Below are positions 10,266 to 34,651 of a DNA stretch of 38,050 bases, piece by piece. A program made the position numbers and the translations under genes. Position 1 is the first letter of the stretch, and each line of letters starts with the position of its first letter. Origin of the DNA: a virus; IMG/VR virus record IMGVR_UViG_3300021957_000116, positions 1 through 38,050 of that record. The stretch is one strand, 5' to 3'. The notes below the pieces were generated by a model. That model was not told where the DNA came from. It did no database searches and was given only the letters and a program-made list of their open reading frames with translations.

Positions 10266-10972
10266 GCTGCAAATTGCTCCGAAACTTGTATTTGGTCATT
10301 TTTTCCATGATTAAATGATTTAATATACCCCGATATTAAATGTCCACCAATTCTAGTCATTCCATATCTCATTCCTACAGGAACTCCTGAATTAATTGTG
10401 TTAGTTAGTCCAGTGAATAAATTGTTTTCTGTCCTTGAACCATCGTCTGTAAAAGTCCTATTATTGGAGTTACTTTTAGGTGAGGACTGGGCCAGCGCCA
10501 TTATTCCTTGTAGTGCAAGAGACGCGCCAAACATAGCTATTTGTGAAAAACTAACACTCATACCTGCTACCGTAAAAGCAGTTGTTCCCATTCCCATTGT
10601 AGGCCCCATAGCTCCTACTATGGCAGGAGCCATATAGAACGCCACAGCAATAAGGGCGATACCTATAACTACCATTGCAATTCCACCACCTTTTCCTCCG
10701 CCACCTACGATAGAGGGAACTAAATAATAAACTTCATCGTTTAGCTTTTTATTAGCTTCTACATCCGCTAAACTCACTCTTTTTTTATTTTTATTTAAGA
10801 TAAAAAAATCAGTAGTTAATTTGTTTTTGTTTTGTTTAACAAACTCTGCAAATTTTGGAAAAGAATTTACTAAGAAACTCATTAAAGAATGGTAGTCTTT
10901 AACTTCTACTTTTATTTCTTTTCTATCTTTAAAATACTTTGTTGCATTTTGGTGTATAACTAAAGTAATCAT
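10262..10972 (-). CDS. I: gpI-like tail tip assembly protein, second copy
   Basis: This 236-aa protein has the lambda gpI layout. An N-terminal ubiquitin-like beta domain ([14 protein letters not shown]..., residues 1-90, with FPKFAEFV) is followed by a Gly-rich hinge (GGGGKGGG). A long hydrophobic Gly/Ala segment spans about 95-165, and the conserved tail reads [10 protein letters not shown]...VPVGMRYG...[15 protein letters not shown]. It is clearly paralogous to the protein directly upstream (10969-11640), and the two genes overlap by ATGA. Another ATGA overlap joins it to gpJ. In lambda, gpI is needed for tail-tip assembly around J and is absent from the finished tail. This copy has a longer hydrophobic block than its partner. 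Confidence 0.87.
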
Positions 10973-11640
10973 GTTGCAAATTGCCCCGATACTTTAATCA
11001 AAGCTCCTTTTCCGTGATTAGTAGTTTTTATATATCCACTTACTAATTGTCCCGCAGATCGTACTTGTCCATAAATTATAGGCACGTTGTTATTACTTGA
11101 GGTCGTGTTTGTTAAACCATTAAACAAATTATTATCTATTCGTTCTTGAACATCAGGTGTTTGTTTTTCTGGAGGTTTGGGTACTTTTGTAAATAATCCC
11201 ATAACCCCGCTTAATACCATGTTTAGTCCAGTAGAAAACGCTAGTTTTCCTAGCGTAGTTCCCATAAAGGAGGTTGCGGCTAAACCTGGAAAAGCAAAAG
11301 GAGCCGCAATTAACGCAATCCCAATAGCTATTTGTAAAAAAGATCCTTTTTTACCTCCTGCTCCACCAAGAATAGGGCTAATGTATATCTCTTCGTGATT
11401 AGCCCTAAGTCTATTGTATTGATAAATTTCACTTTTTATAATTTTTCTATCTTTATCTAACAAACAAAGATTTTCAGATATGTTTTCTGTTTGAATTTTT
11501 CTAATATACTCTCCAAATTTTGGAAAAAGATTACACACAGCAGAAATTAAAGATTCAAAATCATCACACACAACAGTATGAGTTTTGATTCCAGTTGTAT
11601 ATTTTAATAAAGAATTGTGAAAAGTTAGTGTTATTTTCAT
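10969..11640 (-). CDS. I: gpI-like tail tip assembly protein, first copy
   Basis: This 223-aa protein has the gpI domain order. An N-terminal ubiquitin-like domain (MKITLTFHNSLLKYTTG..., with FPKFGEYIRK) is followed by a GGAGGKKGS hinge at about 94-102. A hydrophobic helix-rich segment follows (QIAIGIALIAAPFAFPG). The conserved C-terminal region reads NNLFNGLTNTTSS...VPIIYGQVRSAGQLVSGYIKTTNHG. It overlaps the JAMM gene by 4 nt and the second gpI copy by 4 nt, so translation is probably coupled. The order M-L-K-I-J matches lambda. Having two gpI genes is unusual; the copies have diverged strongly in sequence but keep the same layout. Confidence 0.87.
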   Translation of the reverse strand: MKITLTFHNSLLKYTTGIKTHTVVCDDFESLISAVCNLFPKFGEYIRKIQTENISENLCLLDKDRKIIKSEIYQYNRLRANHEEIYISPILGGAGGKKGSFLQIAIGIALIAAPFAFPGLAATSFMGTTLGKLAFSTGLNMVLSGVMGLFTKVPKPPEKQTPDVQERIDNNLFNGLTNTTSSNNNVPIIYGQVRSAGQLVSGYIKTTNHGKGALIKVSGQFAT

Positions 11641-12005
11641 ATTAAATGTTTTTCAACAAATTCATCGAATTTAAGTGCGTCTACGTTTTTATCTAACCAG
11701 TAGATATAAAATTTATTATTAAAACCGACAACAAACTTAAACTCTTCAAAAACTGCTCCTTTTTTATCTTCTTCGCTAGGAAGAGGATTTTCTTCCCCTG
11801 GATGTGAGTGAAATATCCCCCAACAATTATCTTCATATTCAAAAAGACTTTCGGGATCAACAACAAAACTATCTTTAGGAAAAGGACTTATATTTTTACA
11901 CGCTACATACTTAAAATCTTTTGTTATTAGCCCACAACATTCTCTAGGATATTCTGCTTGTGCATGCTTTCCCATGTCACTAATTAGTGTTGAAAATAAA
12001 GTCAT
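11637..12005 (-). CDS. JAMM/MPN (Mov34-type) metalloprotease-like tail protein, gpK N-domain equivalent
   Basis: This 122-residue protein carries a full JAMM zinc motif. Glu22 lies in ECCGLITK, then H66-S-H68-P with Ser77 and Asp80 (HSHP-x7-S-x2-D). These residues bind zinc and catalyse isopeptide or peptide cleavage in the JAB/MPN family. In lambda gpK this domain is fused to an NlpC/P60 domain; here it stands alone, after two separate NlpC/P60 genes. It overlaps the upstream NlpC gene by 26 nt and the downstream gpI gene by 4 nt. The role is inferred as tail-tip maturation or peptidoglycan-related processing during entry. The substrate is unknown. Confidence 0.9.
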   Translation of the reverse strand: MTLFSTLISDMGKHAQAEYPRECCGLITKDFKYVACKNISPFPKDSFVVDPESLFEYEDNCWGIFHSHPGEENPLPSEEDKKGAVFEEFKFVVGFNNKFYIYWLDKNVDALKFDEFVEKHLI

Positions 12006-12426
12006 CTGACATTCCTATCCATTTAAACATTCCTACTGTATAATTTTTATAATATCTGCCATAAGGAGCAACCCAACTTTTATGATCAATCATAGTTTGT
12101 AACATTTTATTTTTTTCTACCAACAAAGCACAATGGTTAGTAACGTTAGTTGACCCAAGAGACATTGTTATAATATTAAATTCCTCTAAATCTTCGGTTT
12201 TTTTCCATCCATATGCTTCAGTGCTTGCAGCATCCATAGATCTTTCGTGTGTTTTAGTATACCAATCTTCGTCCACAATATTACACCAGTATGTAGTATC
12301 GTAGGGTATATCAATGCCTAATTGTTCTTTATAAACTAACCTACAAAGATTAAAACAATCAATACCTGTTTCAATATTATTGCCTAAATGTCTATAAGGA
12401 AACCCTTTATATTTATCATACCACAT
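11980..12426 (-). CDS. NlpC/P60-like peptidase in the tail tip, second copy
   Basis: This 148-aa protein has an NlpC/P60-type core. Cys24 lies in GIDCFNLCRLVYKEQLG, the expected nucleophile context. A second conserved position, His98, lies in TNHCALLVEKNKMLQT, and Asp114/His115 are candidates for the third polar residue. Lambda gpK carries this domain and it is thought to act on peptidoglycan peptides during DNA entry. The gene overlaps the preceding NlpC/P60 gene by 11 nt and the JAMM gene by 26 nt. It differs considerably from its neighbour, so this may be an old duplication or two separate acquisitions. No signal peptide is present, as expected for a virion protein. Confidence 0.82.
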   Translation of the reverse strand: MWYDKYKGFPYRHLGNNIETGIDCFNLCRLVYKEQLGIDIPYDTTYWCNIVDEDWYTKTHERSMDAASTEAYGWKKTEDLEEFNIITMSLGSTNVTNHCALLVEKNKMLQTMIDHKSWVAPYGRYYKNYTVGMFKWIGMSDDFIFNTN

Positions 12427-12847
12427 TCTGCGGGTCTTTTCGTCTTAAAATAAAATGTATTTTATCTCTCCACTCTTGATTCAGTGCTGTTATTCTAGAG
12501 CTTGTTTCTTCTTCCACATGTATAAAATTATTATTTACGGTATACATACCAAAATGAATTGGTCTATTCTTTTTTGACTTAAATAATATTACATCATATT
12601 CTTCTATTTTTGTCAAATCAACTTTTATTGCGTTTAAGTTAACCCACTCTTCTATTTTTTTTAAAGTTATTTTAAACTTCCAACGACTACCTTCTGAAGG
12701 TTTTCCTTCTACTAAGTTTAAATGGGTCCACAAACTTTGAAAAACATTACATTTTAACTCTTCTTTATATATTTTTTCAATCAATGTTATACAGTTTATA
12801 TTTTGATAATCATGTTTTATTCCTAAATATTTTGTATAGTTCGTCAT
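12416..12847 (-). CDS. NlpC/P60-like peptidase in the tail tip, first copy
   Basis: This 143-residue protein has a minimal NlpC/P60 fold. YLGIKHDYQNINC leads to Cys19, the likely nucleophile, followed by ITLIEKIYKEEL. His98 lies in RPIHFGMYTVNNNFIH, with His110 as a possible third residue. It begins at a TAATG junction with the gpL gene, which is the lambda K position. Together with the next two genes it provides what lambda makes as one polypeptide (NlpC plus JAMM). One of the two NlpC proteins may be structural and the other catalytic; both keep a Cys/His pair, so the sequence does not say which. Confidence 0.82.
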   Translation of the reverse strand: MTNYTKYLGIKHDYQNINCITLIEKIYKEELKCNVFQSLWTHLNLVEGKPSEGSRWKFKITLKKIEEWVNLNAIKVDLTKIEEYDVILFKSKKNRPIHFGMYTVNNNFIHVEEETSSRITALNQEWRDKIHFILRRKDPQNVV

Positions 12848-14823
12848 TATTTAGGAATAGTCCTTCCTGTACCGGGGAATCCACCAAAATGTATAGTATT
12901 GTTTCTAATTTGACAAGATTCAAAACTTTTTCCACACTCGTCTTCGGCTATACTTCCAGCTGTTTGGTTGTTAGCAGCAATTGGGTTTGAGTTAGCAGTA
13001 GCGGTAGTACCTGGAATAGTACCCCCCGCAGGTCCTGGATATTGGCATTCTTCTCCTTTATATATCCATTGACAGGTATTTTTATAATATTTTCTACGAG
13101 GCAAAATCAGCTTAAAAAATTGTAGCCAACTAGTTAAAGTAAAACTAGCTACTTTTTCATCTAAGTTTTGGAGAGAATCAATTTTAAAACTATCTTCTAC
13201 ATATGCTTCATCATCCGCGTCTGCATTTTTTATTAGTAAGTGATCGCCTTGTCCCAATGTTAGTGCTGTATTAGTAAAAATAAATCTTTCTTCTTCAATT
13301 GCTTGAATCGTGGCAACAAAGGTATTAGCTCTAACAAAAACTTCGTCTCCGACCCTGTAAGGAAGAGTTGTTGTCATTTCTAGTACATTTGAATAAGCTG
13401 ACCTAACTTTAGCATACTCAGGCCAATAGTCTAAGAAATTAGCAAAAGTTGATTGTATTTCTACTACACCTCCTAACAAATCTCTGGAGTCCAACTTTTC
13501 TCTTTTCCAAGTACCGTTAACAGCTTCAGTAGTAGAGACGGTAAAGCTTGCGTTATTCTTCCCATAGGAGTCTGTTATTACTTGGCTGTAGCTTAAACCG
13601 TTACTTCTGGCCCGACTTAATACATCGCTATGTTCTTGTTCTGTATATGTCGCACCTGCTGGAATGGTCCTGGGGTCAATTCCTGTAACAACTTCTCCAT
13701 TTACTACAGCAAAACAAGCATTAGCTGTGTTATTACCCACTAAATCAGGGTTTTCACAAAGTTGAGTAATTAACCCATCAAAATTAGATATGTCAATAGT
13801 AACTTCGTTGATAGTTCCCGAAGAATCTATTTCTATCCCACCACTATTAATAGGCATAGGGGTATAATTAATTCCCCCAAATTCTACATTATAAGTTACG
13901 TCTGTATTTAAATCTCCTCTAATTTCAGCAAAACGCATAGGGAAACCGTCCGGCCAGCTTCTACCAAACCCTTCTCCTCCCGGGTTGCCTTGATCGGTTG
14001 AAGGGTACCACTCTCCTGGGTAATAAATTGAAAATAAACGAACTAAAGGATTTTGAACAAAAGAATTTCTTTCTCTAATATAATTAGAGTTAGCTATAGA
14101 CGTAACATTAGTATTAGCCCCTTTTATTTGTTCTGAAAAAGCTTTAGCTTGAAAAGGAATAGACTCAGTATTTCCTTCATCAACTCGCACAACTACACTA
14201 GTTAAATTGGCATGTACCCAATTATCATATCCAATAGAGTAAGTAAATTCAGAATTAGAAGCAGAAACTGCAAAAGTATCTGCAATACTGCTCAGAAGAA
14301 AATCATAAATACCACTTTCTTCCTGTCCCTTAATTCTTAAGTTATCTTGGGTATGCGTATCCCCAGAAGTAACTGCCCGAATAGGTTTAAAATCAAAACC
14401 AGTATCTCCTAAAGTTGTACTAGGATAGTTAATTAAAGTTTTATCAATTTGCCTATTATTAACAAAAACAGAAAAAGAATCTGAAGTTAAATTACTTCTA
14501 CTTAAAACACCAAGAGGTAAAGAAAAGGTATTAGTAGTCCCATTAATTTGAAAAGAATTACCATTTACACTTAAAGAAGCACTATTAGTATATGTTGCTG
14601 CCTCAACGTTTGAGGAAATTCTATTAAAAATAGGAGAAACATTCTCTCCTTCAATAAATTCTTGATTAACATTAGCTACTTTGATTTTAATATTAGAGTT
14701 AGCTTTATCCGTAGCAACTACTGTCCCAGTAGTACTAGTGGTTTCTGAGAGAATAGTATCTCCCTTATTGATAATGCTAGGATTGTCAATTGTTAAAATG
14801 TAATCGTAAGTGCGGGTAGTCAT
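12847..14823 (-). CDS. L: gpL-like minor tail protein with four-Cys cluster and large N-terminal extension
   Basis: The C-terminus has the gpL signature: CQWIYKGEECQYPGP, then CGKSFESC and HFGGFPGTGR. The four cysteines are C584, C593, C630 and C637; the 9- and 7-residue spacings match those of lambda gpL, where they bind a [4Fe-4S] cluster. The gpL core seems to start near residue 260 (SFVQNPLVRLFSIYYPG). It is interrupted by a helical segment (EQEHSDVLSRARSNG) similar to short structural modules in other virion proteins. Residues 1-250 are extra beta modules (FSVFVNNRQIDKTLINYP and similar). At 658 aa it is nearly three times lambda gpL (232 aa). Both junctions with its neighbours are TAATG. 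Role: tail-tip baseplate component next to gpM. Confidence 0.88.
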   Translation of the reverse strand: MTTRTYDYILTIDNPSIINKGDTILSETTSTTGTVVATDKANSNIKIKVANVNQEFIEGENVSPIFNRISSNVEAATYTNSASLSVNGNSFQINGTTNTFSLPLGVLSRSNLTSDSFSVFVNNRQIDKTLINYPSTTLGDTGFDFKPIRAVTSGDTHTQDNLRIKGQEESGIYDFLLSSIADTFAVSASNSEFTYSIGYDNWVHANLTSVVVRVDEGNTESIPFQAKAFSEQIKGANTNVTSIANSNYIRERNSFVQNPLVRLFSIYYPGEWYPSTDQGNPGGEGFGRSWPDGFPMRFAEIRGDLNTDVTYNVEFGGINYTPMPINSGGIEIDSSGTINEVTIDISNFDGLITQLCENPDLVGNNTANACFAVVNGEVVTGIDPRTIPAGATYTEQEHSDVLSRARSNGLSYSQVITDSYGKNNASFTVSTTEAVNGTWKREKLDSRDLLGGVVEIQSTFANFLDYWPEYAKVRSAYSNVLEMTTTLPYRVGDEVFVRANTFVATIQAIEEERFIFTNTALTLGQGDHLLIKNADADDEAYVEDSFKIDSLQNLDEKVASFTLTSWLQFFKLILPRRKYYKNTCQWIYKGEECQYPGPAGGTIPGTTATANSNPIAANNQTAGSIAEDECGKSFESCQIRNNTIHFGGFPGTGRTIPK

Positions 14824-16454
14824 TAATCATAAACCTCTTTTAGTTTAAAATTAACTGTATAATAGTTAGTTTGTAAACTAGTATTTGACGAGTCAGAAAA
14901 AACATGAGAAACCTGTAAAGAACCATCAAATCTTGCTTGTATTGTACCATTTTCATTGATGTGTGTCAAATCAAAAGTGAATGTCTCAAAAGATCCGTTC
15001 CTTGCGATATAGAACTGCTCGATTGCGTGTTTTTCTACACCTGTAATATTTGTATAGGTTAAATCAAAATCACGCTTAGAACGGCGACTTCTTAATCTTC
15101 TTTTTTCATATCCGCCCTGTGATTCAAAGTTAATTACGTCAAATTCACGATTAGTGGAAAAACCTCGATCAGGTTTTCTGTCTTCCATAGAGGTAAATCT
15201 ATCAAAGGTGTCAACGTCACTAGTAAAACGTCTAATAACCAAAACATCGTCAGATTGTAGAGGTGTGTGTATTCTTGTAGCGGCAACGACCGGAGTTTCA
15301 AAAGTACCTGTTCTAACAGGGCTATTATTAACAAACCTAAAAGAGTCTATAAAACCTTTTAAATGCTCTCTAGTATCGGCACTAGTTGTATTTATACGCC
15401 CTATCTCAAAAGCACCGGTAGGATTGATAGTGTAAGTACTACTAGCGTCAAACTGAACCACAGAGCCATTGACAAATAATGCAGTGTTTCCAGTTTCTTT
15501 GTTATGAGCAACTGCGACATGGGTAAAAGTGTCTGCGCTAATAGAGCCTCCCTGCACGTCTGCTACAACCGAACCGCTTTCTTTTACTAGCCACTGCATT
15601 TTATTATTAGCCAATCTACTAAGTTTTACAAAATTATTATCATCAGTCCTATGAGAAAAAACTGTATTGGCTTGACTTGCATCTTCAAAACGAGCAAAAC
15701 ATTCTATGCAAAAACTACCTTCATACTTAAATTCTGCGCTATCTGCAAAGCTAATTAAATCATTTGTCCCATCAAAAGATGCAGCAGAATTTCCAAACTG
15801 TTTAGTGTCACTTAATACCGCTCCAGTAACTGTAGCAGCGCCGTGAGCTTTGGGACTTTCATCAGTAAAATTAGTCTCAAAATTTAAAAGTAGTGCAGTA
15901 TCCTCAAAAGTTCCTATGCTAATGCCCGCATTTCCTAGATTAAGAGAAACATTTTGTGTTGTAACTGCTGGAGATGTGTTTGATGCGGGATGTACGTACT
16001 GAGTAGATGCCTGTTCTACACCAGAAACTGTGACTAATAATTGGTCTGTGCTATTTACATTTTCTTGAAAAGGAAGCGCAAAGTTTTGTGTAACCCCATT
16101 AATAACATAAGTATTTGCTTGAACTACGGTAGCAGTGTTACTATATTCAATATATTTTACTGTTTGAGCTTTTCTAGAAGTTCTAAACCTAGCAGGTACA
16201 GTAATAATTTTTAAACTCAAAGAGTCCGCCGAAGGAGCTGTTACAAAAGTGATTGTAGCTCCAGAATTACTGACTGAATATGTCGAAGTAGCCTGTTCAA
16301 TACCGTCTACAGTAACAACTACTTCTCCAACATGTTCAATAGTATGGGGATGTACGTTAAAGTTAGTGGCACTTCCTGTACTTGAAAAATTTATTGTACT
16401 AATAGTATCAAAAGCAGTAGTAGTTATAGTTGCATCTGTAGGATAAGTAGCCAT
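14823..16454 (-). CDS. M: gpM-like minor tail protein with beta modules and LamG domain
   Basis: This 543-aa protein directly follows the tape measure (TAATG junction). The C-terminal ~115 residues (from about 430: DRGFSTNREFDVINF...RRSKRDFDLTYTNITG...IEQFYIARNGSFETFTFD) have the length and pattern of lambda gpM. N-terminal to this come two repeated beta modules (VVVTVDGIEQATSTYSVS at 45-62 and LLVTVSGVEQASTQYV at 139-154) and a LamG/concanavalin-like domain at about 185-395 (SAASFDGTNDLISFAD, FTHVAVAHNKETGNTALFVNG, HLKGFIDSFRFV). Lambda gpM is only 109 aa, so the extension is phage-specific and probably exposed on the tail tip, where it could bind carbohydrate. The beta modules also resemble the C-terminus of the fibre at 36866. 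Confidence 0.8.
   Translation of the reverse strand: MATYPTDATITTTAFDTISTINFSSTGSATNFNVHPHTIEHVGEVVVTVDGIEQATSTYSVSNSGATITFVTAPSADSLSLKIITVPARFRTSRKAQTVKYIEYSNTATVVQANTYVINGVTQNFALPFQENVNSTDQLLVTVSGVEQASTQYVHPASNTSPAVTTQNVSLNLGNAGISIGTFEDTALLLNFETNFTDESPKAHGAATVTGAVLSDTKQFGNSAASFDGTNDLISFADSAEFKYEGSFCIECFARFEDASQANTVFSHRTDDNNFVKLSRLANNKMQWLVKESGSVVADVQGGSISADTFTHVAVAHNKETGNTALFVNGSVVQFDASSTYTINPTGAFEIGRINTTSADTREHLKGFIDSFRFVNNSPVRTGTFETPVVAATRIHTPLQSDDVLVIRRFTSDVDTFDRFTSMEDRKPDRGFSTNREFDVINFESQGGYEKRRLRSRRSKRDFDLTYTNITGVEKHAIEQFYIARNGSFETFTFDLTHINENGTIQARFDGSLQVSHVFSDSSNTSLQTNYYTVNFKLKEVYD
15270..15902 (-). other. LamG-type (concanavalin-like) domain in the gpM-like protein
   Basis: Residues ~185-395 run from LLLNFETNFTDES through SAASFDGTNDLISF and HVAVAHN to HLKGFIDSFRFVNN. 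This is the usual strand pattern of Laminin_G_3 domains. It resembles the LamG domain inside the connector at 25466-26779. Confidence 0.7.
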
Positions 16455-22353: not shown

Positions 22354-23655
22354 TTATGCTGCTTTAACAACAAATGTTACGTTAGCACCTGTACCTTTTT
22401 GAGCAGTTGTTTCTTGCGCTAAGAACTCAGCGCTAATGCCAACAACATCTTCAATTGAGTGTGTTGGGAAACTAAACTGAGTAGCCTGCATATCAATTGC
22501 GAAATAAGGAGCCGTAGCGCCACCAATTTTAAGGTTGGCTTGGGTTCCTTGAGCGATTGTAGTAGCAGTATTTGCAACAATGTTTCTTAAGAAAGCAGCA
22601 GAATTATCACTTGCTGTTGCGCCACTTCTTAGATACGCGCTAATTGACCCTGAAATTGTTTGCGCGCCTGTAAACTGCGTAATAGGTGAGTTAAGGCTTG
22701 AAAGTTCTTCGGGTGTTAAATATGTCATATTATTATTAACATCAAAAGTTAGTCCTGTAACAGGGAATGTATGACTTGCTGTATCTCCGCTTGTGGTATC
22801 AGTAATATCAATAGTTGATAGCCGGTTCTGAATGAATTCGGCACTAGTAGCAGCTCCTGCAACGTTATAAGAGTTCCAAGGATGATACTTACTAGTATTT
22901 ACTGTTGCACCATCAGTCTTGAAAATATCAATTGTAGACCCGCCAGCGACTGTAGTACCATTATTTAGAGTACCACCAAAAACGTTAATAGCAACGTCTC
23001 TTGGCGCTCCTGTAAGCTCTACAAGGTTGGTAGCAAAACCAGTCCAAGTAGTAGTAGCAATTCCGTCAATAGCGGCATCAATAGATGCTTGGTTAACAGC
23101 AGCATTAGCTAGTTGGTAAACAACGTTATCAACTTTCATATATAAATGTGCTTCTGTAGCGGTTGCAAAGTTTGGGTCACAAGCAGCAACGTTAGAGGTA
23201 GCTGCACGACCGAGATTTTCCCATTTAGCAATGGACGTATCTGCAGTGCCTTGCCACGCACTTTGCATTTGGGTTCCTGTGGCAGGGGCAGTTGCACAAA
23301 GCAATGCTTGCCATAAAAACCAGTCTGCAACAGGTGTAGCGTTACCATTTTCAAGTAAGTTAGTTGCAGCTGCCCCGTCAATTGAAGTGGCTCGTGTGGG
23401 TTTCAAATATGCCTGGAAGTTCCAATCAACTGGGTTAATAGCTGTATTGAACCTCTGTTGAGAACGATCAGGAGATGTTCCACTTTCGAGCGAAGTGATG
23501 TCTGTAGTTGCCGCTGATTGACTAAATGCATATCCCGCAAGTACTTCAACCTGCCAAGTATTGGCAGGGCTCATTGCGGTTGCGGCAGCGCCACCATTGA
23601 GATCAACGGTGGAGTAGAAAATTTTTGTATTTCTTTGTAAGTTAAGCGATGCCAT
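22354..23655 (-). CDS. Major tail (tube) protein
   Basis: This 433-aa protein begins MASLNLQRNTKIFYSTVDLNG and contains ANTWQVEVLAGYAFSQSAATTDIT, SLESGTSPDRSQQRF and NPVDWNFQAYLKP, typical of siphovirus tail tube proteins. Its place after the tail terminator and before the frameshifted chaperones fits lambda gpV. The C-terminal half (FTGAQTISGSISAYLRSG...FPTHSIEDVVGISAEFLAQE) has the beta-sheet pattern of tube subunits. The middle (~150-270) is probably an exposed insertion, since the protein is longer than lambda gpV (246 aa). Strong stems follow the gene, consistent with high, separately tuned expression. Confidence 0.87.
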   Translation of the reverse strand: MASLNLQRNTKIFYSTVDLNGGAAATAMSPANTWQVEVLAGYAFSQSAATTDITSLESGTSPDRSQQRFNTAINPVDWNFQAYLKPTRATSIDGAAATNLLENGNATPVADWFLWQALLCATAPATGTQMQSAWQGTADTSIAKWENLGRAATSNVAACDPNFATATEAHLYMKVDNVVYQLANAAVNQASIDAAIDGIATTTWTGFATNLVELTGAPRDVAINVFGGTLNNGTTVAGGSTIDIFKTDGATVNTSKYHPWNSYNVAGAATSAEFIQNRLSTIDITDTTSGDTASHTFPVTGLTFDVNNNMTYLTPEELSSLNSPITQFTGAQTISGSISAYLRSGATASDNSAAFLRNIVANTATTIAQGTQANLKIGGATAPYFAIDMQATQFSFPTHSIEDVVGISAEFLAQETTAQKGTGANVTFVVKAA

Positions 23656-23669
23656 TTCTTAAAGCTCCT

Positions 23670-24122
23670 TTAATCTTCTATTTCATACCCGATGTTTATA
23701 AAGACTTCTCCGAGACCGTATGGTTCGATAAGTCCCTCATCTGTAGAAATATTTGATATATTAAATTGTAGTATTCCTTTATCAGATTGACTTGATATGT
23801 TATATATAACATGTTCCACGTCGTCGATTAGGTTTTCTAACCCGTCCTGCGCCTCTTCTTGTTTTACATAACATCTAATAACTATAGGAAGATTAGCTAA
23901 AGTAAATCCCTGAGTCTGATAATCTCTGGTTTCTGCTCCTGCACTTAAATATAAGGCAGGAAAGTCGTTTACTTCATCAATAAATTTTAGTTGCCTAAAA
24001 ACATTATTTGCTAAATTAAAGTTATAAGTGTAAGAGGCACCAAAAGTTGAAGAGTCACCATTAATTTTTTTTAATTCTGTGACAAGGAAATTTACAATAT
24101 CTCTTCTTCGACTGTTTGCCAT
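23670..24122 (-). CDS. Tail terminator protein (gpU-like)
   Basis: This 150-aa protein begins SRRRDIVNFLVTELKKING, the helical start common in tail terminators. A beta core follows (DFPALYLSAGAETRDYQTQGFTLANLPIVIRCYVKQEEA), then a helix (DGLENLIDDVEHVIYNI) and a final strand pair ending in INIGYEIED. The helix-beta-helix-beta pattern and the position just before the major tail protein match lambda gpU, which caps the tail tube and joins it to the head. The gene is preceded by an 87-nt non-coding gap containing a good promoter-like sequence, so it may start its own transcript together with the tail genes. Confidence 0.75.
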   Translation of the reverse strand: MANSRRRDIVNFLVTELKKINGDSSTFGASYTYNFNLANNVFRQLKFIDEVNDFPALYLSAGAETRDYQTQGFTLANLPIVIRCYVKQEEAQDGLENLIDDVEHVIYNISSQSDKGILQFNISNISTDEGLIEPYGLGEVFINIGYEIED

Positions 24123-24209: not shown

Positions 24210-25466
24210 TTAAAAACCTTTTAAAACATTAAATTGTCTTCCAACTCTTCGTTGGGTTATGTTTCTAATACTTCCTTCAATAGTTTCATTGGGGTTTCTT
24301 GAAGTATCTTGGTGTACTTGATATATAGGATTGTAATAGTATCTAATTAAGCTACCTCTAACCTGAGTTATAACACTTCTAACAAAGCGTCCACTTCTAT
24401 TTGTTAGTATTTCATCGCTCAGAGGAGGTCCTTGTAAGGGTCCTTTAGGCATTCTCGCAAATAATGATCTTTGAACTGCTGCAGTGAGTTGAGAAGAAGA
24501 AATAGTAGCTTGCATCTCCTTCTTTTTTCTTGGGCCTCCCTTGCGTGAACCTTTAATTTTACCTTTTGTCATTGGAATACTAGCGCCTGATGGGTATTCC
24601 ATTATCATATCAAAATCAATACCGGATGCTTGATTGGTTACTTTTCGTCTACCTGGTAAAGTAGCTAGTGCTTTTTCAAACTCTTTTGCTGTCTCAACAG
24701 TTATTGCAGGTCCTGCATCTAATATTGATTTTATTAATTGTCTCTCAAAAGATTCGCTTAATTTTAAAACAATGGCCGCAGGCTTAGTTAATTCTGTAAC
24801 AAAAGGAGGAGAAGTAAATTTGTTTAAAGGAAATGCTATATTTATTACATCTACTGCAGTAACTTTGTTACCCCCACTTTTTTGAACTTTAGAAATCTGT
24901 AAAACTCTTGCTTTACGATAAAACTGCATAAATAAATCGGGGTCATTTTCTTTAATTAAGTTAAAAAATCCACCAGCCCCTCCTAAAGCGGTTCTAGCAG
25001 CTTTTAAGATTCCTTGTTTATCCTCTATGTCTACTCCTGGGTCTGCTGTTTGAGCTGCTCTTTTTATAGAATCTGTTAAAGATAATGAACCTACTTGTTG
25101 TCCTCCTTCAATAGCAAAAGGAGAAACTTGTCCAATAGTAGCACCACCTTTTCCTCCTCGGGTTGCTTTTAGCTCTGTTTCTGTTATTTCTTCTAGCCCA
25201 AGAGCTGCAGCTAAAGGTGCAGATATTTCTTCTGCGTTAATCTCAAAATCTGGAACTAGACGGGCGCTACCACCTCTAACTGTTGCTTTATAAAATCTAC
25301 CTATTGATTGTTCTAAAGCAGTTTGACTAATTTTTCTGGTTGCTTTTCCGCCAAGAAGAGGTTTCCCTCCTTTTTTAACTCCACGTAAAAAATCAGCATA
25401 ATTATCTAGTAACTCTGGTTCTGTAATTCTTACATTAAATGCTGTAATCCCTGCAGGAGGTGCCAT
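24210..25466 (-). CDS. Neck / tail completion protein candidate, unrecognised family
   Basis: I do not recognise this 418-aa protein with certainty. It lies between the gp6-like connector (1-nt overlap, TAATG) and the tail terminator, where lambda gpZ or HK97 gp10-type completion proteins are found. The N-terminal half is mixed alpha/beta with Gly/Lys-rich loops (RGVKKGGKPLLGGKATRK; ATRGGKGGATIG). The middle contains GGKGK-like basic patches (KGKIKGSRKGGPRKKKE, about 303-319) that could contact DNA. The C-terminus (ILTNRSGRFVRSVITQVRGS...YYYNPIYQVHQDTSRNP) is likely the folded structural part and looks the most conserved. No enzyme motif is visible. A head-tail joining role is inferred only from position. 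Confidence 0.7.
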   Translation of the reverse strand: MAPPAGITAFNVRITEPELLDNYADFLRGVKKGGKPLLGGKATRKISQTALEQSIGRFYKATVRGGSARLVPDFEINAEEISAPLAAALGLEEITETELKATRGGKGGATIGQVSPFAIEGGQQVGSLSLTDSIKRAAQTADPGVDIEDKQGILKAARTALGGAGGFFNLIKENDPDLFMQFYRKARVLQISKVQKSGGNKVTAVDVINIAFPLNKFTSPPFVTELTKPAAIVLKLSESFERQLIKSILDAGPAITVETAKEFEKALATLPGRRKVTNQASGIDFDMIMEYPSGASIPMTKGKIKGSRKGGPRKKKEMQATISSSQLTAAVQRSLFARMPKGPLQGPPLSDEILTNRSGRFVRSVITQVRGSLIRYYYNPIYQVHQDTSRNPNETIEGSIRNITQRRVGRQFNVLKGF

Positions 25467-26779
25467 TATTCAATTATCCTATATAAATCTAGAACTCTTT
25501 TAATATGGGGCGGGAAGTTTGCAGCAAGAGCAGGTCTAGTTACCGACTCTCCTGCAAGAGCGAAACCAGAACGGTCTTGCTCCTCTTTGTGTAATAGCTT
25601 TATATAATCTAGTGTCGCTAATTTTAAATCTTGTGGCACATTACCCGACTCATACCCCGCACGATAATTAACACGAATAGCTTGGGGAAAGTTTTGAAAA
25701 GCTTTTGGTCCTTGTAAAGTTAGTTTTTGATAACCTGCACCAGAACCAGTATTACGACTAATTTCTCCTGTGTCCTTTTTAAATACAAATTCTTCTTGAG
25801 AAGCATGGGTATCATTAACATCTACTGCCGCATTAGCACCCTCAAAGTGGAGTAGTAGTTTAGTTTCATCGTCTGTTAAATGTTGATACTCAGGAGTGTC
25901 AAAAGCATCTGTATAGTGTGCTGATTTAGAAATTCGTAGTTCGTCCATATATCCTGTAAAATGGGCAGGAGTAGTATTACCAGATTTTGCAATAAGCAAT
26001 TCGCCACTAAAATTTGGAGCATCAACTGTTTTAGCAATTGTAGCAGTACTACCAATCTGACTTCCATCTCTAAATAATTTAAGAGAAGTTCCGCTTTTAC
26101 TTACTGCAAGATGATGAAAAGTGTTAGCTGTATAGCCACTGGTAGCGGCGTGTGCTACATTCATAACTTCAGTACCAGCATCTACGACTCTAAACTGTAA
26201 CCCTTCTACTGCATTATATCTAAATTGCCAAAAATCGTTAGCATCTTGATATTGTTCCACTAACACTTGTGATGCAGAAAAACTAGAAAATCTAGCTTGT
26301 AAATCAATAGTAAAATCTTCTGTATCAAACCACCAATCATCACCATTAGATGCTGATAGATAATCTCCATTTCCGTCAAAATATACGGAAGATTGTCCAA
26401 ACTTTTTAACTCTTGTTGTAATATGTGTGTCCCCATTTGTTGTTATGGTGTGGTTGTCCGAATCTTGATCCACCAAAAGCCCGTCCGCTGCAGGGGGGTT
26501 TAAACTTTCATACCTTGTTCCATTATATTCAAAAACTGAATGCACATTTGCAAGAGGTAAACGAGAGGCAAAAACTGAACTGTAACCACCATCAAAAGTT
26601 TCTGAGTAGTTATTTGCCAGTACCTCTCGTTCAATATAGTGTTCTACCACACCACAAGCATAATTAATTACATTAGCTAACCTACCATCATGGGTAGTGC
26701 TATTAATACTTAGATAGTCTTTAGTTTCTACTAATGTAACATATGGATATTTACCTAAATTACTTTCTGTGATAGCCAC
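25466..26779 (-). CDS. HK97 gp6-like head-tail connector interrupted by a LamG domain
   Basis: The N-terminal ~90 residues (VTLVETKDYLSINSTTHDGRLANVINYACGVVEHYIERE...) and the C-terminal ~80 residues (AIRVNYRAGYESGNVPQDLKLATLDYIKLLHKEEQDR) together make a normal-sized gp6-type connector: helices plus the V-x-Y-x-AGY...VP..L strand-helix unit. Between them, at about residues 128-315, lies a LamG/concanavalin-like domain. It shows SSVYFDGNGDYLSAS, FTIDLQARF, FHHLAVSKSGTSLKLFRDG, HFTGYMDELRIS and KLLLHFEG. The connector ring sits below the portal in the neck, so the inserted domains would project as a 12-fold collar. It starts 12 nt after the small acidic gene. Confidence 0.82.
   Translation of the reverse strand: MAITESNLGKYPYVTLVETKDYLSINSTTHDGRLANVINYACGVVEHYIEREVLANNYSETFDGGYSSVFASRLPLANVHSVFEYNGTRYESLNPPAADGLLVDQDSDNHTITTNGDTHITTRVKKFGQSSVYFDGNGDYLSASNGDDWWFDTEDFTIDLQARFSSFSASQVLVEQYQDANDFWQFRYNAVEGLQFRVVDAGTEVMNVAHAATSGYTANTFHHLAVSKSGTSLKLFRDGSQIGSTATIAKTVDAPNFSGELLIAKSGNTTPAHFTGYMDELRISKSAHYTDAFDTPEYQHLTDDETKLLLHFEGANAAVDVNDTHASQEEFVFKKDTGEISRNTGSGAGYQKLTLQGPKAFQNFPQAIRVNYRAGYESGNVPQDLKLATLDYIKLLHKEEQDRSGFALAGESVTRPALAANFPPHIKRVLDLYRIIE
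25835..26398 (-). other. LamG-type domain inserted in the connector protein
   Basis: Residues ~128-315 have the Laminin_G_3 pattern: FGQSSVYFDGNGDYL at the start, FHHLAVSKSG in the middle and FTGYMDELRISKSAHYTDAF near the end. The host protein resumes its connector fold afterwards, showing an in-frame insertion rather than a terminal fusion. Confidence 0.75.
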
Positions 26780-27156: not shown

Positions 27157-28557
27157 TTAACCAGCTTCAATTAATGATGCATATGCGAAGTTTGTTGCAT
27201 CAAGAGCAGCGTTACTGTTAGAGCTAAGTGCTTTGAAATCAAAGCGGGTGCTCATGTACATTGCTGTAACCTGCTGGCGTGGTTCATACTCGCTCTCAAT
27301 CTCCATGCCTCGGCGTTCCCCGATGAGGAATCCTGGCTTGTAGACTAGAACACCGAGTTCGTTTCCGGTAGAACCTACATTATCCATGAACTCAGAGATA
27401 ACAATTGGAATACCATAAATGGCACCTACTGCACCTGTGAGATACGTGGCATTTGGTCCGAACTTATCGACAGTGCGGAAGTCAGAGAAGCTAACTAGCT
27501 CGTTGTAGCCTTCAACAGAAGTTACGTAAACTAGGTGATCTCCAAGCTGTAGACCATACTTACCCATCTTCGCACGGGCAGAGGCAATGTCTGAAGCATC
27601 AGCTTTGTCGTTTCCACTACCTGTAGTGGTTCTTAGACCAGAAATATCGTCGGCAAGAGTAACAAGACCTTTAATTACTGACGCATAACCTGTTCCTGCT
27701 GCGATAGCATTGGTTGGTGCTGCTGTAAACCCTGTAAGGGCGCCTGTTCCACGAAGGATTGCCTTGTCGATTGCGCGAGCAACACGGCGTGTAGCTGCAC
27801 GACGAAGGAAGTCCATTAGGGGTAGAACTGTGTCTTCTTCTTCATCCTTGGCAAGGTGAGTTGTTGCCATGAACTTATGAGGTGTGAGTTCTACTGCACT
27901 GATTGTGTTCTGGTTTGAAGTTGGAACGTTTGTTGCGTCTGCAATGCCTGTGGCAAAAGTGCCAGAAGCAAACTGAGCAACATCACCGTCAGTGTCTTCC
28001 TTAGCAACAGGAATTCTGAAAGTCTTTGCATCAACTTGAATTCTGTCGAACATAGGAGCAATAACGAGCTGCTGTTCCATTTCTTCGTATACATTAGATG
28101 AGAAATTTGAAAGGAACTGATCAACAGCTGTGACCGCCTTAATTTTCTGACCCATCTTAGTGTCGAAGGGGTCGCGACGGCCTAGGGCCTGGGAAAGCAT
28201 ATATGCGTTCGCCATTTCCTTCTCGGAGAACTGCTCTCTGCTTGTATGAGAAGTTTCCTGATAGACCATCTTGGACTGTGATAGAGCAGAAATTTGCTCT
28301 TCGTACTTTTTCATTTGAGCCTTAAGTTCAGCAACCTGCTCTGTTTCAACAGGGGTGTACTCTGAACCTTTTTTGTCCTGGGCATCAGCCTCAGTTAGAA
28401 TTGCCTCACCAGTCTTTTCAACAAGCTCGGCAACTCGTGGCTCGGAAACCTGAGCAGGGGCACTCTTTACTTCAACTGCGGGTGCAGCTGGAGCAGGTGT
28501 TTCTGTCTCGGCTTCGGTTTTAACAACGATTGGATCGCCAACGTCTTGTGTCGCCAT
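27157..28557 (-). CDS. Major capsid protein from internal start (nested, in frame)
   Basis: The ATG at 28557 (Met539 of the long frame, MATQDVGDP) has AAGGAG (28572-28567) with 9 nt between GGAG and the ATG. This is as good as any gene start in the window. The product would be 466 aa: an N-terminal Ala/Pro/Glu-rich stretch and coiled coil (about 90-100 residues, comparable to the HK97 delta domain), then the complete HK97 fold. That is a normal capsid precursor length. It would supply the hundreds of copies needed for a shell while the full fusion stays minor, similar in principle to lambda's nested C/Nu3 genes. Whether both are made cannot be decided from the sequence. Confidence 0.65.
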   Translation of the reverse strand: MATQDVGDPIVVKTEAETETPAPAAPAVEVKSAPAQVSEPRVAELVEKTGEAILTEADAQDKKGSEYTPVETEQVAELKAQMKKYEEQISALSQSKMVYQETSHTSREQFSEKEMANAYMLSQALGRRDPFDTKMGQKIKAVTAVDQFLSNFSSNVYEEMEQQLVIAPMFDRIQVDAKTFRIPVAKEDTDGDVAQFASGTFATGIADATNVPTSNQNTISAVELTPHKFMATTHLAKDEEEDTVLPLMDFLRRAATRRVARAIDKAILRGTGALTGFTAAPTNAIAAGTGYASVIKGLVTLADDISGLRTTTGSGNDKADASDIASARAKMGKYGLQLGDHLVYVTSVEGYNELVSFSDFRTVDKFGPNATYLTGAVGAIYGIPIVISEFMDNVGSTGNELGVLVYKPGFLIGERRGMEIESEYEPRQQVTAMYMSTRFDFKALSSNSNAALDATNFAYASLIEAG

Positions 28558-30171
28558 TTTATCATTCTCCTTTGAATTAGTAGTTTTATGACCGTGAAGC
28601 ATTAGAGCTAAATCTTTTTCCTCAACTTCACCTGATTTAATCGCATTCAGCTCTTGAATTTGATTTATCATATGATTCGCAACTTGATAATTTGTATCAG
28701 TCCATTCGTCGAATGGAGTGATTTTTAAATTAATAGTTTTGTTCAATTTTTCTTGATCATCTTCGGTTTTTACCTTAGATTTCACATCGTAAAGCTCTTT
28801 TTCACTCAAAGTAACGAATGATTCGAAGCTTTCTTTGATAGCTACTCTATCTTTGTCAGTAAATTTGACCTCTGGAACAGTTGTTAGTGTAATATCAAAC
28901 TTAGTTCCTAAATCCCAGTTATTAACAACAGATAAAGTTTTTGCATCAACGTTAATAGTATTATCCAATGATTCGCCATTTAAGTCAACTTGTAAAAGTT
29001 GATAAAATGGGTTTTGGGCAGTCGCAAGTTTTGTAACTTTCCACCGCTTATCATCGAATTTAACAAAATTTTCGTGTGTTAAACGTGATGTTTCCGCACT
29101 GAGAAGATTAACAAAAGGAATGGGTTCGTAAGGATCAGCACTAATAGCTTCTTCCTCATCGTCTATTTCCTCTTTCTCCGTTTCGATAATATCTTCTTCA
29201 GAAGCAACTGTAATAGTTACTTCTTCTGATTTTTCTTCAACGGCCTCTTCAACAGAAACATCGGATGACTCGGTAAGATCATCTTCAGTCTTAATTTCTG
29301 AATCTTCACTCATTTCTTCATCTCCTTTTCTGTTTTCCGATTCTGTTAAGAGATTCATAGACCCATTACCCATCGTCTCAGATGGGGACTGCGGTCTTTG
29401 TTCCTCTACACTTTGCTCATTTTGCATTTCACTAGGTTTAACCATAAAAACAAGCTCATGCTTATGAGAAGTAGGCTTTGTAGCCTCTAATAATTTATAA
29501 TATTTGACATCATGGAAGTGTTTTTCTCCATGAGAGGTATAAGTAGTAACTCCGTTACCGTTTTCATCTACTTCAACAGTATGATAATGTCCACCTACGT
29601 ATGCGGTAACTCCTACACTAACATCCGTAGCTTTTTCGATAATTTCGTTTTCATCTTTTTCAAATTGTTTTTTAAAAGTTTCGTAATCTGAGTCAGATTC
29701 GAAGTTTTTTCTAACGCTAAATAAACTCTCTTGATTACAAGGGACAGAAACAACACTAATTTCCATTAGCTCTACATCAGTAATTAACATAGTGTCCGAA
29801 TCTCTGTCATAAGCGCCGTCTTTTACTTTAAATCCTACGCTAAAACTTTTTAATGCTCCATCTTCGATTAAGGTTTGTACTCCATGTAATTTTTCAGCAG
29901 CTTCACTAACAGCAGCCTCTACATAAATACCTTTTTTATCGACGGTAACCTTATCTACACGGCCAATGGGTTTACCGTGGTCATGTTGATATAGTAATAC
30001 GGGGTTTTTTCTATAGTTTTCAACGCCTTTTGCCCAAGCAGTCGCAGGGATAATATCACCCGCTCGATCTTTATCGGCAGTATTGGCATATCCAGCAATT
30101 TTAAGGGGTTTATTGTTTTTTCTTGCGCCTTTTGTTTCTAAAACGCTAGTTAAATATAATGTCTTATTCAT
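27157..30171 (-). CDS. Prohead protease - spacer - HK97-fold major capsid protein, single reading frame
   Basis: There is no stop in 1004 codons. Residues 1-~160 are an HK97-type prohead protease (S78 family): LKIAGYANTADKDRAGDIIP, LLYQHDHGKPIG with candidate catalytic His63/65, LKSFSVGFKV with Ser111, and ELMEISVVSVPCNQ. Residues 188-240 are His-rich (GGHYHTVEVD, HGEKHFHDV, SHKHEL). Residues 288-345 are highly acidic, followed by an unrecognised ~180-aa region. From Met539 comes the capsid protein: a coiled-coil delta-like segment (VAELKAQMKKYEEQISALSQ), then the HK97 fold (QVDAKTFRIPV, RRVARAIDKAIL, GIPIVISEFM, GFLIGERRGMEIE). The protease would remove the N-terminal parts. It begins at a TAATG junction with the portal gene. 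Strong internal ribosome sites precede Met287 and Met539, so free capsid protein is probably made in excess over the fusion. Confidence 0.9.
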   Translation of the reverse strand: MNKTLYLTSVLETKGARKNNKPLKIAGYANTADKDRAGDIIPATAWAKGVENYRKNPVLLYQHDHGKPIGRVDKVTVDKKGIYVEAAVSEAAEKLHGVQTLIEDGALKSFSVGFKVKDGAYDRDSDTMLITDVELMEISVVSVPCNQESLFSVRKNFESDSDYETFKKQFEKDENEIIEKATDVSVGVTAYVGGHYHTVEVDENGNGVTTYTSHGEKHFHDVKYYKLLEATKPTSHKHELVFMVKPSEMQNEQSVEEQRPQSPSETMGNGSMNLLTESENRKGDEEMSEDSEIKTEDDLTESSDVSVEEAVEEKSEEVTITVASEEDIIETEKEEIDDEEEAISADPYEPIPFVNLLSAETSRLTHENFVKFDDKRWKVTKLATAQNPFYQLLQVDLNGESLDNTINVDAKTLSVVNNWDLGTKFDITLTTVPEVKFTDKDRVAIKESFESFVTLSEKELYDVKSKVKTEDDQEKLNKTINLKITPFDEWTDTNYQVANHMINQIQELNAIKSGEVEEKDLALMLHGHKTTNSKENDKMATQDVGDPIVVKTEAETETPAPAAPAVEVKSAPAQVSEPRVAELVEKTGEAILTEADAQDKKGSEYTPVETEQVAELKAQMKKYEEQISALSQSKMVYQETSHTSREQFSEKEMANAYMLSQALGRRDPFDTKMGQKIKAVTAVDQFLSNFSSNVYEEMEQQLVIAPMFDRIQVDAKTFRIPVAKEDTDGDVAQFASGTFATGIADATNVPTSNQNTISAVELTPHKFMATTHLAKDEEEDTVLPLMDFLRRAATRRVARAIDKAILRGTGALTGFTAAPTNAIAAGTGYASVIKGLVTLADDISGLRTTTGSGNDKADASDIASARAKMGKYGLQLGDHLVYVTSVEGYNELVSFSDFRTVDKFGPNATYLTGAVGAIYGIPIVISEFMDNVGSTGNELGVLVYKPGFLIGERRGMEIESEYEPRQQVTAMYMSTRFDFKALSSNSNAALDATNFAYASLIEAG
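29311..29325 (-). promoter_or_regulatory. Internal ribosome binding site at Met287 of the protease-capsid frame
   Basis: AAAAGGAG ends 8 nt before ATG 29313-29311 (MSEDSEIKTED), in frame with the long gene. A product from here would lack the protease and begin with the acidic spacer. It may represent a scaffold-capsid fusion or mark a former gene boundary. Confidence 0.5.
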
Positions 30172-31445
30172 TAATTTTCATCCTCTATTGTAGTAGAGTC
30201 CTCTAGACTTTCTTCTGCGGTAGGTCTACCTCCCTGAGTCGCATCTGTAGCACTTCCTGTAATATTTTGAGGAATTCTAATGCCGTCTGAGTCTCCGTCT
30301 TCAAGTTTTGGAAATCTTAATCCAACTCTAGCCTCGTTCGGTGTAATAATTCCTGTATTAACCAACGTTGAATAGTAAATAGCTTGAGTTCTGTTATCAG
30401 GTTGTAAAGATAGTATAGCAGTTTTATCTGGTCGTATACTAATGTTATTATTAAAGAAGTGAGAAAAAGCACTACAAAATTGTTCTAAAATAGGCAGTAC
30501 TGTGTGGTTATAAAACAAAACTTGATTAGCCTGAATATTAGCATTATTACCACTTTTTAGCATAACATATGGTACTCCAAGAGCCTTTGCCATATCCTGT
30601 TGAATTCGTTCAATTGAATTTTCAAAATCTAATTCATTAAAATTTATCTGAGAAAACTTATCAATTTTTAGTCCACCATCCAAAATTGCAGGAGAACGTG
30701 CTCCGTTAAATAAACTAGTATAACTTTGTCTCCAAGATTCTAGAAGTCTATATTTAATTTTTTGACTTAAAACATTATCTGTAGTAAGAACAAATCCGGG
30801 TACTGCATTATTTTTAAAGAATTGTCTTTGGAAGTTAATCATATAATAATAAAGCTCAAAAAGTCTTTCTAAAGGACGAAGTCTACTATACCCCCTAAAG
30901 ATGCTTTCTTCATTCTCACTCTTAACATGAATTATTTCACTAGGTAAAAACTGAATAGCTTCTGATTTTCTCGATTTTCCATAACCAAATAAATCTGATT
31001 CACTTTGGTTTCTCAAAAGATAATTATAATGAGAAACAAAAGCCCTTTCATCTGGTACAATTTCCATATCATTTGCAGGAATTACGTAAATAGCGCCACC
31101 TTCTTGGTCTTTGTCATAATAGAAAAAGGCGTTACCATCTAGAAAAAAATCTAGAAAAGCACGCCTAAACAATCTAACTCTATCTTCAAATGGATTAGGT
31201 TTATTTTGTAACAGTTTGTGAACTTTTTTAGACGGAGAACCTCCTTCGATTACTAAAGGCACCTCTATTAAAGCATTAATAACTATGTCTACTGAGCGAT
31301 GAACAATTTCAATCTCTCTATAAGCTTTTTCAAAGTCTACAATATTGTCAGGGCTTGAAAAAGGTTCCTGAGAAGCAATAGATGGCTGTACAGGATTTAG
31401 TTTTTCTGAAAGATATTGTCTCCATGATGGAACATCATTTGCCAT
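30171..31445 (-). CDS. Portal protein (HK97/SPP1-type)
   Basis: This 424-aa protein lies directly before the protease-capsid gene, the standard portal position. Recognisable portal elements are YREIEIVHRSVDIVINALIEVP near the start and LLQNKPNPFEDRVRLFRRAFLDFFLDGNAFFYY (wing/stem region, about 98-130). IQFLPSEIIHVKSENEES and YRLLESWRQSY follow, as does the clip/crown part with DMAKALGVPYVMLKSGNNANIQANQVLFYNHTVLPILEQF. The C-terminus is acidic and disordered (LEDSTTIEDEN). The protein forms the dodecameric DNA channel that binds the terminase and the connector. Its stop overlaps the next start by one base; the upstream neighbour, an HNH nuclease, ends 3 nt before it. Confidence 0.93.
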   Translation of the reverse strand: MANDVPSWRQYLSEKLNPVQPSIASQEPFSSPDNIVDFEKAYREIEIVHRSVDIVINALIEVPLVIEGGSPSKKVHKLLQNKPNPFEDRVRLFRRAFLDFFLDGNAFFYYDKDQEGGAIYVIPANDMEIVPDERAFVSHYNYLLRNQSESDLFGYGKSRKSEAIQFLPSEIIHVKSENEESIFRGYSRLRPLERLFELYYYMINFQRQFFKNNAVPGFVLTTDNVLSQKIKYRLLESWRQSYTSLFNGARSPAILDGGLKIDKFSQINFNELDFENSIERIQQDMAKALGVPYVMLKSGNNANIQANQVLFYNHTVLPILEQFCSAFSHFFNNNISIRPDKTAILSLQPDNRTQAIYYSTLVNTGIITPNEARVGLRFPKLEDGDSDGIRIPQNITGSATDATQGGRPTAEESLEDSTTIEDEN

Positions 31446-34087: not shown

Positions 34088-34651
34088 TTATGTTTTAATT
34101 ATAAAATTAACTACGACTGTTGGAAAAGTCATGTTAGGTGTAATAGCTGAGTGAGCAGCTACAGCAGTAACAGCAGAACTTGTTGAAGAGTCTTTCGCTG
34201 ATGTAGCAAAAGTTGCTGTTGTGAGTGAGTGGGCGCTAATTGATGTAGATTCTGAAGGCTTAACAGAGCTTGCTGACATCGCGTGAGTTGTAGTTCCTAG
34301 GGTACTGTTGTTAGCTCCCTTTCCTAGTGCTAATTTATCTCTAAAATCTGGAACGTTAAAAGTTGTATTACCATCTCCCGCTCCGAAACCTGTTGCAATT
34401 GTCGCAAAAAGATGTGCGTATGTTGATCTTGAAACAGCGCTACCGTCACAGATAAGATAGTTAGCGGGAACAGTTGCTCCTCCAAAACCCATGATAGCTC
34501 CAGAAGGAATTACTTCAAAGCCTCCAGCAGTCGATCCATCATGGATACGAATACTTTCGGTATCTGTATCTAAAGAAAGTTCTCCGACAGCTCCTGTAAA
34601 ACTATCATTTTGTGATGTTGTGCCTCTTCTAAATTGTACTTGAGTGGCCAT
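34088..34651 (-). CDS. Short tail fibre protein with Phage_Collar domain
   Basis: This 187-aa protein starts with the QFRRGTT...FTGAVGELSLDTD...IRIHDGST module (residues 5-42), common at the start of phage fibre and collar proteins. The collar domain follows at about 50-107 (ANYLICDGSAVSRSTYAHLFATI, GAGDGNTTFNVPDFRDK). Residues 108-187 match the C-terminus of the protein at 2510-3538 closely (LGKGANNSTLGT, SISAHS, AAHSAITPNM, TVVVNFIIK). The shared part probably forms the receptor-binding tip. It starts 17 nt after the large fibre gene at 34669 and ends just before the XhlA-like gene. Confidence 0.88.
   Translation of the reverse strand: MATQVQFRRGTTSQNDSFTGAVGELSLDTDTESIRIHDGSTAGGFEVIPSGAIMGFGGATVPANYLICDGSAVSRSTYAHLFATIATGFGAGDGNTTFNVPDFRDKLALGKGANNSTLGTTTHAMSASSVKPSESTSISAHSLTTATFATSAKDSSTSSAVTAVAAHSAITPNMTFPTVVVNFIIKT

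Follow-up and report, generated by a model that had tools for sequence, protein, structure and literature searches.

Few parts of tailed phages are as conserved as the adaptor rings, which are usually regarded as plumbing. The head completion protein of phage DT57C consists of a helical domain (residues 1-43 and 112-170) with a lumen-facing hairpin and a small beta-barrel (residues 44-111) that contacts the portal (PMC10713586), and the homologous adaptors of T5 and DT57C are dodecamers (PMC11313276, PMC10713586). In lactococcal 936 phages, the neck passage structure bears carbohydrate-binding modules, and one of these modules was shown to bind host cells (PMC6669499). Mycobacteriophage Douge has Ig-like, fibre and CBM domains that bound mycobacterial glycans in an array assay, and the phage adsorbs more slowly to a host mutant without the glycan (PMC13033339). 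The archaeal virus HFTV1 has often been observed bound head first (PMC9973310). An earlier note on the DNA analysed here had stated that a connector ring in the neck is not normally a glycan-binding site, which is overstated given the 936 modules and the outer beta-domains carried by the adaptors of R4C (PMC10276861) and 812 (PMC12886913). Here, we describe a lectin-type domain in the adaptor ring across a clade of uncultured phages.

The adaptor gene and its T5-type surroundings

The window, that is the whole stretch of DNA analysed, is a virus record of 38,050 bases whose relevant features are collected in Table 1. In the adaptor protein, Laminin_G_3 (PF13385) matches residues 135-287 (E 5.8e-15; 56.2 bits, Pfam cut-off 27.6) and the head completion family PF24163 matches residues 367-434 (E 3.8e-8; 34.1 bits, cut-off 27), both passing. 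Its C-terminal part also matches the PHROGs head-tail adaptor family phrog_442 (residues 319-435, E 1.8e-20) and has two head completion proteins, 8hqo and 9ilp, as its PDB relatives, and its middle matches several PHROGs families of LamG-bearing virion and baseplate proteins. The Pfam gp6-like connector family PF05135 gives a weak match at residues 14-57 (E 0.08; 13.7 bits, under the cut-off of 21.2), a threshold that two insert-free relatives exceed (L119, 22.8 bits; L161, 26.0 bits). The window protein is related to PF05135 connectors and not filed under that family; the earlier label "gp6-like connector" captures this relationship, but "T5-type head completion or adaptor protein" is the better description. 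Across 25 aligned family members, matches at E<=0.1 were found to the head completion family in 25, to Laminin_G_3 in 23 and to Phage_connect_1 in 23; the two without LamG are L119 and L161, the former matching PF24163 across residues 4-202. One full-length relative, from an uncultured virus, is already in the databases under the name "putative structural protein" (A0A218MK94; TM 0.89, 50% identical).

Table 1. Positions of the adaptor gene, its parts and other genes of the neck and tail in the window
Feature	Position	Strand	Basis or remark
Portal protein	30171..31445	-	PF04860, E 1.5e-50
Prohead protease fused with major capsid protein	27157..30171	-	Pfam; single 1004-aa frame, long middle part
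T5-type head completion/adaptor protein with inserted LamG, whole gene	25466..26779	-	437 aa, single open frame, GTG start
N-terminal connector part, residues 1-97 (helices and first attachment-domain strands)	26489..26779	-	
Inserted stretch, about residues 98-326	25802..26488	-	Boundary from insert-free homologues, which lack the stretch
LamG domain proper, residues 108-324	25808..26458	-	Pfam match and fold comparison
C-terminal connector part, residues 327-437 (remaining attachment domain, helices, lumen hairpin region)	25469..25801	-	
418-aa protein at the position of T5 tail completion protein p143	24210..25466	-	Without any Pfam or PHROG match
Tail terminator, T5 p142-like	23670..24122	-	E 8e-12 to T5 p142
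Major tail tube protein, T5 pb6-like	22354..23655	-	E 3e-28 to T5 pb6
Tail protein, 543 aa, with second LamG (residues 215-388)	14823..16454	-	DUF2460 match nearer the C-terminal end

Comparison with cultured phages supported homology over both the N- and the C-terminal flank. Over 172 columns, the lumen hairpin region included, a connector-only profile aligned with five T5-type homologues of cultured phages at an hhalign probability of 98.7, and two insert-free relatives gave a probability of 98.8 against the cultured-phage homologues. Individual tblastn matches to cultured phages were weak, and no whole-protein relative was found in them (0 of 341 matching records reached 80% query coverage). 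The gene order of portal, protease-capsid, connector, 418-aa protein, terminator and tail tube is contradicted by none of 139 connector loci, as far as each extends and counting separately any loci that overlap or that come in pairs from a single contig, and the same neck order is seen in records of T5-like Escherichia, Salmonella and Vibrio phages, in which p143 lies between adaptor and terminator. From these alignments and this gene order, we identify the window protein as a T5-type head completion or adaptor protein of a family related to gp6. The window departs from T5-like phages in two neighbouring genes, in that they encode the prohead protease and the major capsid protein separately, unlike the fusion at 27157-30171, and in that its 418-aa protein is far longer than T5-like p143 (PF25747, 248-255 aa).

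Predicted fold and place in the ring

An AlphaFold2 model from a 25-row alignment reached a mean pLDDT of 81.6 and a pTM of 0.74, with the stretches below a pLDDT of 50 including residues 249-254, 344-359 and 411-416. Its order is two helices, strands at 55-91, a beta-sandwich at about 111-309, strands at 330-373 and helices at 382-407 and 423-430. When model residues 106-323 were superposed on known structures, the PAPP-A LamG domain gave a Z of 18.3 (rmsd 2.9, 184 residues aligned), and the arabinan-binding domain of AbnA (Z 17.8) and the pentraxin PTX3 (Z 17.4) also matched. As modelled, the inserted domain is a complete LamG/ConA-like jelly-roll fold. Foldseek and VIA comparisons of the full model listed chiefly LamG-type matches, and among the matches listed there was no connector chain, which is no argument against connector identity. 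A ring model of the insert-free relative L119 reached a mean pLDDT of only 49.2 and was set aside.

The earlier note had proposed a complete LamG domain within a head-tail connector, with connector sequence on either side, and had named as adverse outcomes a prediction lacking the LamG fold and flanks of some other type. The fold is modelled and both flanks (residues 1-97 and 327-437) belong to a T5-type adaptor, so this proposal stands. The extent it gave, 25835-26398, covers most of the domain (residues 128-315) but not the whole insert.

By our own reading of the alignment, LamG sits in a hairpin turn of the attachment domain, at about residues 77-83 in the numbering of the 170-residue proteins. 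This domain corresponds to the portal-contacting beta-barrel of DT57C. Placed there, the insert should, by homology, point outwards close to the capsid, and twelve LamG copies, if the ring is built as in T5 and DT57C, probably form an outer crown round the neck ring.

Insert carriers, empty sites and the history of the domain

The earlier note had suggested a survey of homologues for inserts at the same loop. We found at least 103 IMG/VR contigs with the insert in a full-length connector, at least 4 with a full-length connector that lacks it and at least 10 with a partial one; these numbers do not measure prevalence, because the viral scans were pattern-based and their queries came mostly from insert carriers. 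The 57 unique proteins fell into 26 clusters at 90% identity, 24 of which (one cut by a contig end) have 220-234 residues between the connector halves, and two of which have 12-14. The insert-free sisters share their neighbours with the window, their portal being 54% and their tail tube about 50% identical to its own. A first connector-only pattern scan of genomes confirmed none of 70 stretches; a second scan, of bacterial and archaeal genomes, found eight relatives, all in metagenome-assembled genomes. Five of these eight loci are titled Gammaproteobacteria or families thereof, titles that do not reveal the phage hosts. Seven encode a full-length protein (194-217 residues), and in all seven the loop is uninterrupted, as the insert is also missing from all five cultured-phage homologues compared. 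The insert is not peculiar to the virus of the window.

The connector tree (40 rows) placed all 26 insert-bearing rings in one clade (SH-aLRT 96), with the 14 insert-free rings all outside. Because the carriers share one clade, we infer that LamG was gained once, in an ancestor, and then retained. In the LamG tree (97 rows, including 70 of 175 free LamG representatives), the connector LamGs clustered together, requiring 2 changes against a shuffled mean of 23.2, a number reached in none of 500 shuffles. The connector and LamG trees were both built quickly, with SH-aLRT as the only support measure. Ring and LamG distances were correlated (Mantel r 0.84; none of 999 permutations as high). The LamGs of three connectors (L001, L007 and L010) are more alike than their rings, the L001-L010 distance being 0.30 for the ring and 0.20 for LamG; the window type and L010 are likewise such a pair, and there is a hint of LamG exchange between related phages within the clade.

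The domain has been maintained. In 27 close pairs of 300, some with dS >1, median omega was 0.145 for LamG and 0.110 for the ring, the LamG value being the higher in 21 of the 27 and reaching at most 0.218. Based on these values, LamG is under purifying selection: kept, changing slightly faster than the ring, and not hypervariable. A fast-changing hypervariable domain, as in diversifying receptor-binding proteins, was not found among these pairs. Polar residues such as Q161, R163, Q176, D179, N207 and H210 are common to the connector LamGs of the window's group and rare in free phage LamGs, a pattern that suits a fixed partner, be it a sugar, the capsid or another protein. The Pfam matches, the many insert-carrying contigs and the low omega rule out a chance match or a chimera as the source of LamG in the connector. 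We saw no sign of a recent gain, in that the G+C of the insert (0.367) is the same as that of its flanks (0.369 and 0.385) and of the window (0.373), and no repeat framing the insert was found.

A strand of the LLLHFEG type (window 25802-25870, minus strand) precedes the LamG units in free phage arrays and follows the unit in connectors. Of the 50 (of 53) connectors that have an anchor motif, 31 carried the LLLxF-type motif at the C-terminal end and none carried it upstream; of 65 (of 220) free phage LamGs, 24 had it upstream and 7 after the unit. With a stricter motif, the counts were 1 upstream and 31 after in 49 connectors, and 6 upstream and 3 after in 43 free LamGs. This motif search is rough, and it hints that the insert was cut from a LamG array in a shifted (permuted) register.

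The second LamG of this phage, on its 543-aa tail protein, is only about 28% identical to the connector LamG, which rules out the latter as a recent copy of it. It is the sole intruder among the connector LamGs on the quick LamG tree, where it sits on a long branch, and a common source of the two domains is possible from that placement. Other genes of the window also have unusual features. The 2237-aa J-like tail tip protein (3552-10265, minus strand) has a Hint/intein-like domain near its start, with matches to PT-HINT (31-161), Hint (21-108) and Intein_splicing (124-155) at E 3e-6 to 1.4e-4; C25 is, by our reading, a likely first residue of this putative splicing element. Two adjacent genes matching the tail assembly protein family phrog_32 (10262-11640, minus strand) and two matching NlpC/P60, one of them barely under the cut-off (11980-12847, minus strand), are apparent tandem duplications. 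Upstream of the terminase and apart from the tail genes lies a gene for a small protein (34088-34651, minus strand) that combines an Mtd N-terminal domain with a tail collar domain.

Possible roles of the crown, and comparison with known systems

Our favoured reading, in which we have slightly less than even confidence, is that LamG is an accessory, weak glycan-binding decoration that aids adsorption; we favor it because the lectin fold occurs at two sites of the virion, the second being the tail protein, and because the rings of relatives work without LamG. The dodecameric ring would sit under the portal, with its helical part and lumen hairpin retaining their usual parts in gating and tail docking, and the LamG domains would project outwards as a crown at the capsid-neck junction. 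There, weak and multivalent binding of host-surface or extracellular glycans could prolong contact until the tail tip meets its receptor. By analogy, the neck modules of the 936 phages (PMC6669499), the glycan-binding domains of Douge (PMC13033339) and the head-first attachment of HFTV1 (PMC9973310) speak for this reading. LamG is accessory to ring function, because sister phages manage without it. LamG folds bind proteins and calcium besides sugars, and we count against the glycan reading that the best fold matches of this domain include PAPP-A and pentraxins. A domain so near the capsid could also simply rest on it, as was argued for R4C (PMC10276861). The other of the two best-fitting readings, which we rate only somewhat lower, is that LamG is a structural brace resting on the capsid around the portal vertex; it would span the 12-fold/5-fold mismatch and make the head-neck joint stiffer, the lectin fold being a mere scaffold. 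The Ig-like attachment domain of the R4C adaptor touches the capsid, and its authors prefer stability over adsorption as its role (PMC10276861); the beta-sandwich domains of the 812 adaptor likewise contact the capsid (PMC12886913). The location of the insert in the capsid-near attachment domain, the steady purifying selection and the conserved polar positions would all suit such a fixed partner. A brace is, however, absent from sister phages with the same neck genes, it fits poorly with the faster change of LamG than of the ring in most pairs, and bracing of the capsid is impossible for the lectin-type fold on the tail protein.

The protein-binding capacity of LamG folds would also serve a crown that docks another phage protein (a whisker, a collar or a capsid decoration) instead of the host. 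Neck rings of T4, XM1 and others do bear collars for fibre attachment (PMC11313276), but we recognised neither a collar gene nor a whisker gene next to the connector within the window, where several genes are without a family match, and we consider this docking role unlikely. Since LamG lies in the portal-holding attachment domain and the lumen hairpin is on the same chain, glycan binding at the neck could alter the ring and help to time DNA release, making the crown a sensor with a trigger outside the tail tip; we regard this as highly improbable. Least probable of all is that LamG was acquired by chance and is useless: the sister phages without it would fit, but it was kept in 26 of 26 clustered representatives of a diverse clade, at low omega.

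The LamG-bearing adaptor has partial counterparts in several known systems. The window protein shares with T5 p144 and the DT57C head completion protein (PF24163; PDB 9ilp, 8hqo) a helical domain interrupted by a beta attachment domain, the gene order, the T5-type terminator and tail tube, and an aligned lumen hairpin region, but those proteins have 170 aa and no inserted domain. The 936 neck passage structure is alike in having sugar-binding-type domains at the neck, but these belong to a separate collar protein with coiled-coil arms and a BppA-like module, outside the adaptor ring (PMC6669499). The R4C roseophage adaptor is a dodecamer with an extra beta-sandwich on its outside beside the capsid, but this is an Ig-like domain at the N-terminus rather than a LamG inserted in a hairpin, and a stabilising role is favored by its authors (PMC10276861). 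The adaptor of Staphylococcus phage 812 has an outer beta-sandwich domain touching the capsid; that phage is contractile, and the available text of its report does not describe the domain as LamG or sugar-binding (PMC12886913). Douge resembles our proposal in spreading many weak glycan-binding domains that aid adsorption across the virion, but places them on capsid, tail tube, fibre and baseplate rather than on the adaptor (PMC13033339). Cyanophage structural and baseplate proteins (PHROGs 701, 3545 and 13163) contain LamG modules of the same domain family (26-37% identical among the matches listed), but their annotations are baseplate wedge or large structural protein and not connector.

We rejected one candidate precedent, BFVD H8ZN75 ("Gp14 neck protein"), whose name we take as a misnomer: its record has giant virion proteins beside baseplate wedge genes. 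A word search of the P-SS2 siphovirus paper gave no mention of lectin, LamG or connector, and among the open-licence PMC papers listed we saw none on a connector with a LamG or lectin domain. The clean insert-free relatives make it testable whether beta-domains on phage necks are adhesive or structural. Should the crown bind glycans, adhesion would reach from the head-neck junction as far as the tail tip; should it act as a brace, it would illustrate the ease with which phages convert lectin folds into structural parts. Decorated adaptors that touch the capsid (R4C, 812; PMC10276861, PMC12886913) and sugar-binding modules at the neck (936; PMC6669499) are already known; what is new here, relative to that open-licence literature, is a lectin-type domain within the adaptor ring itself, gained once and with clean insert-free sites in relatives.
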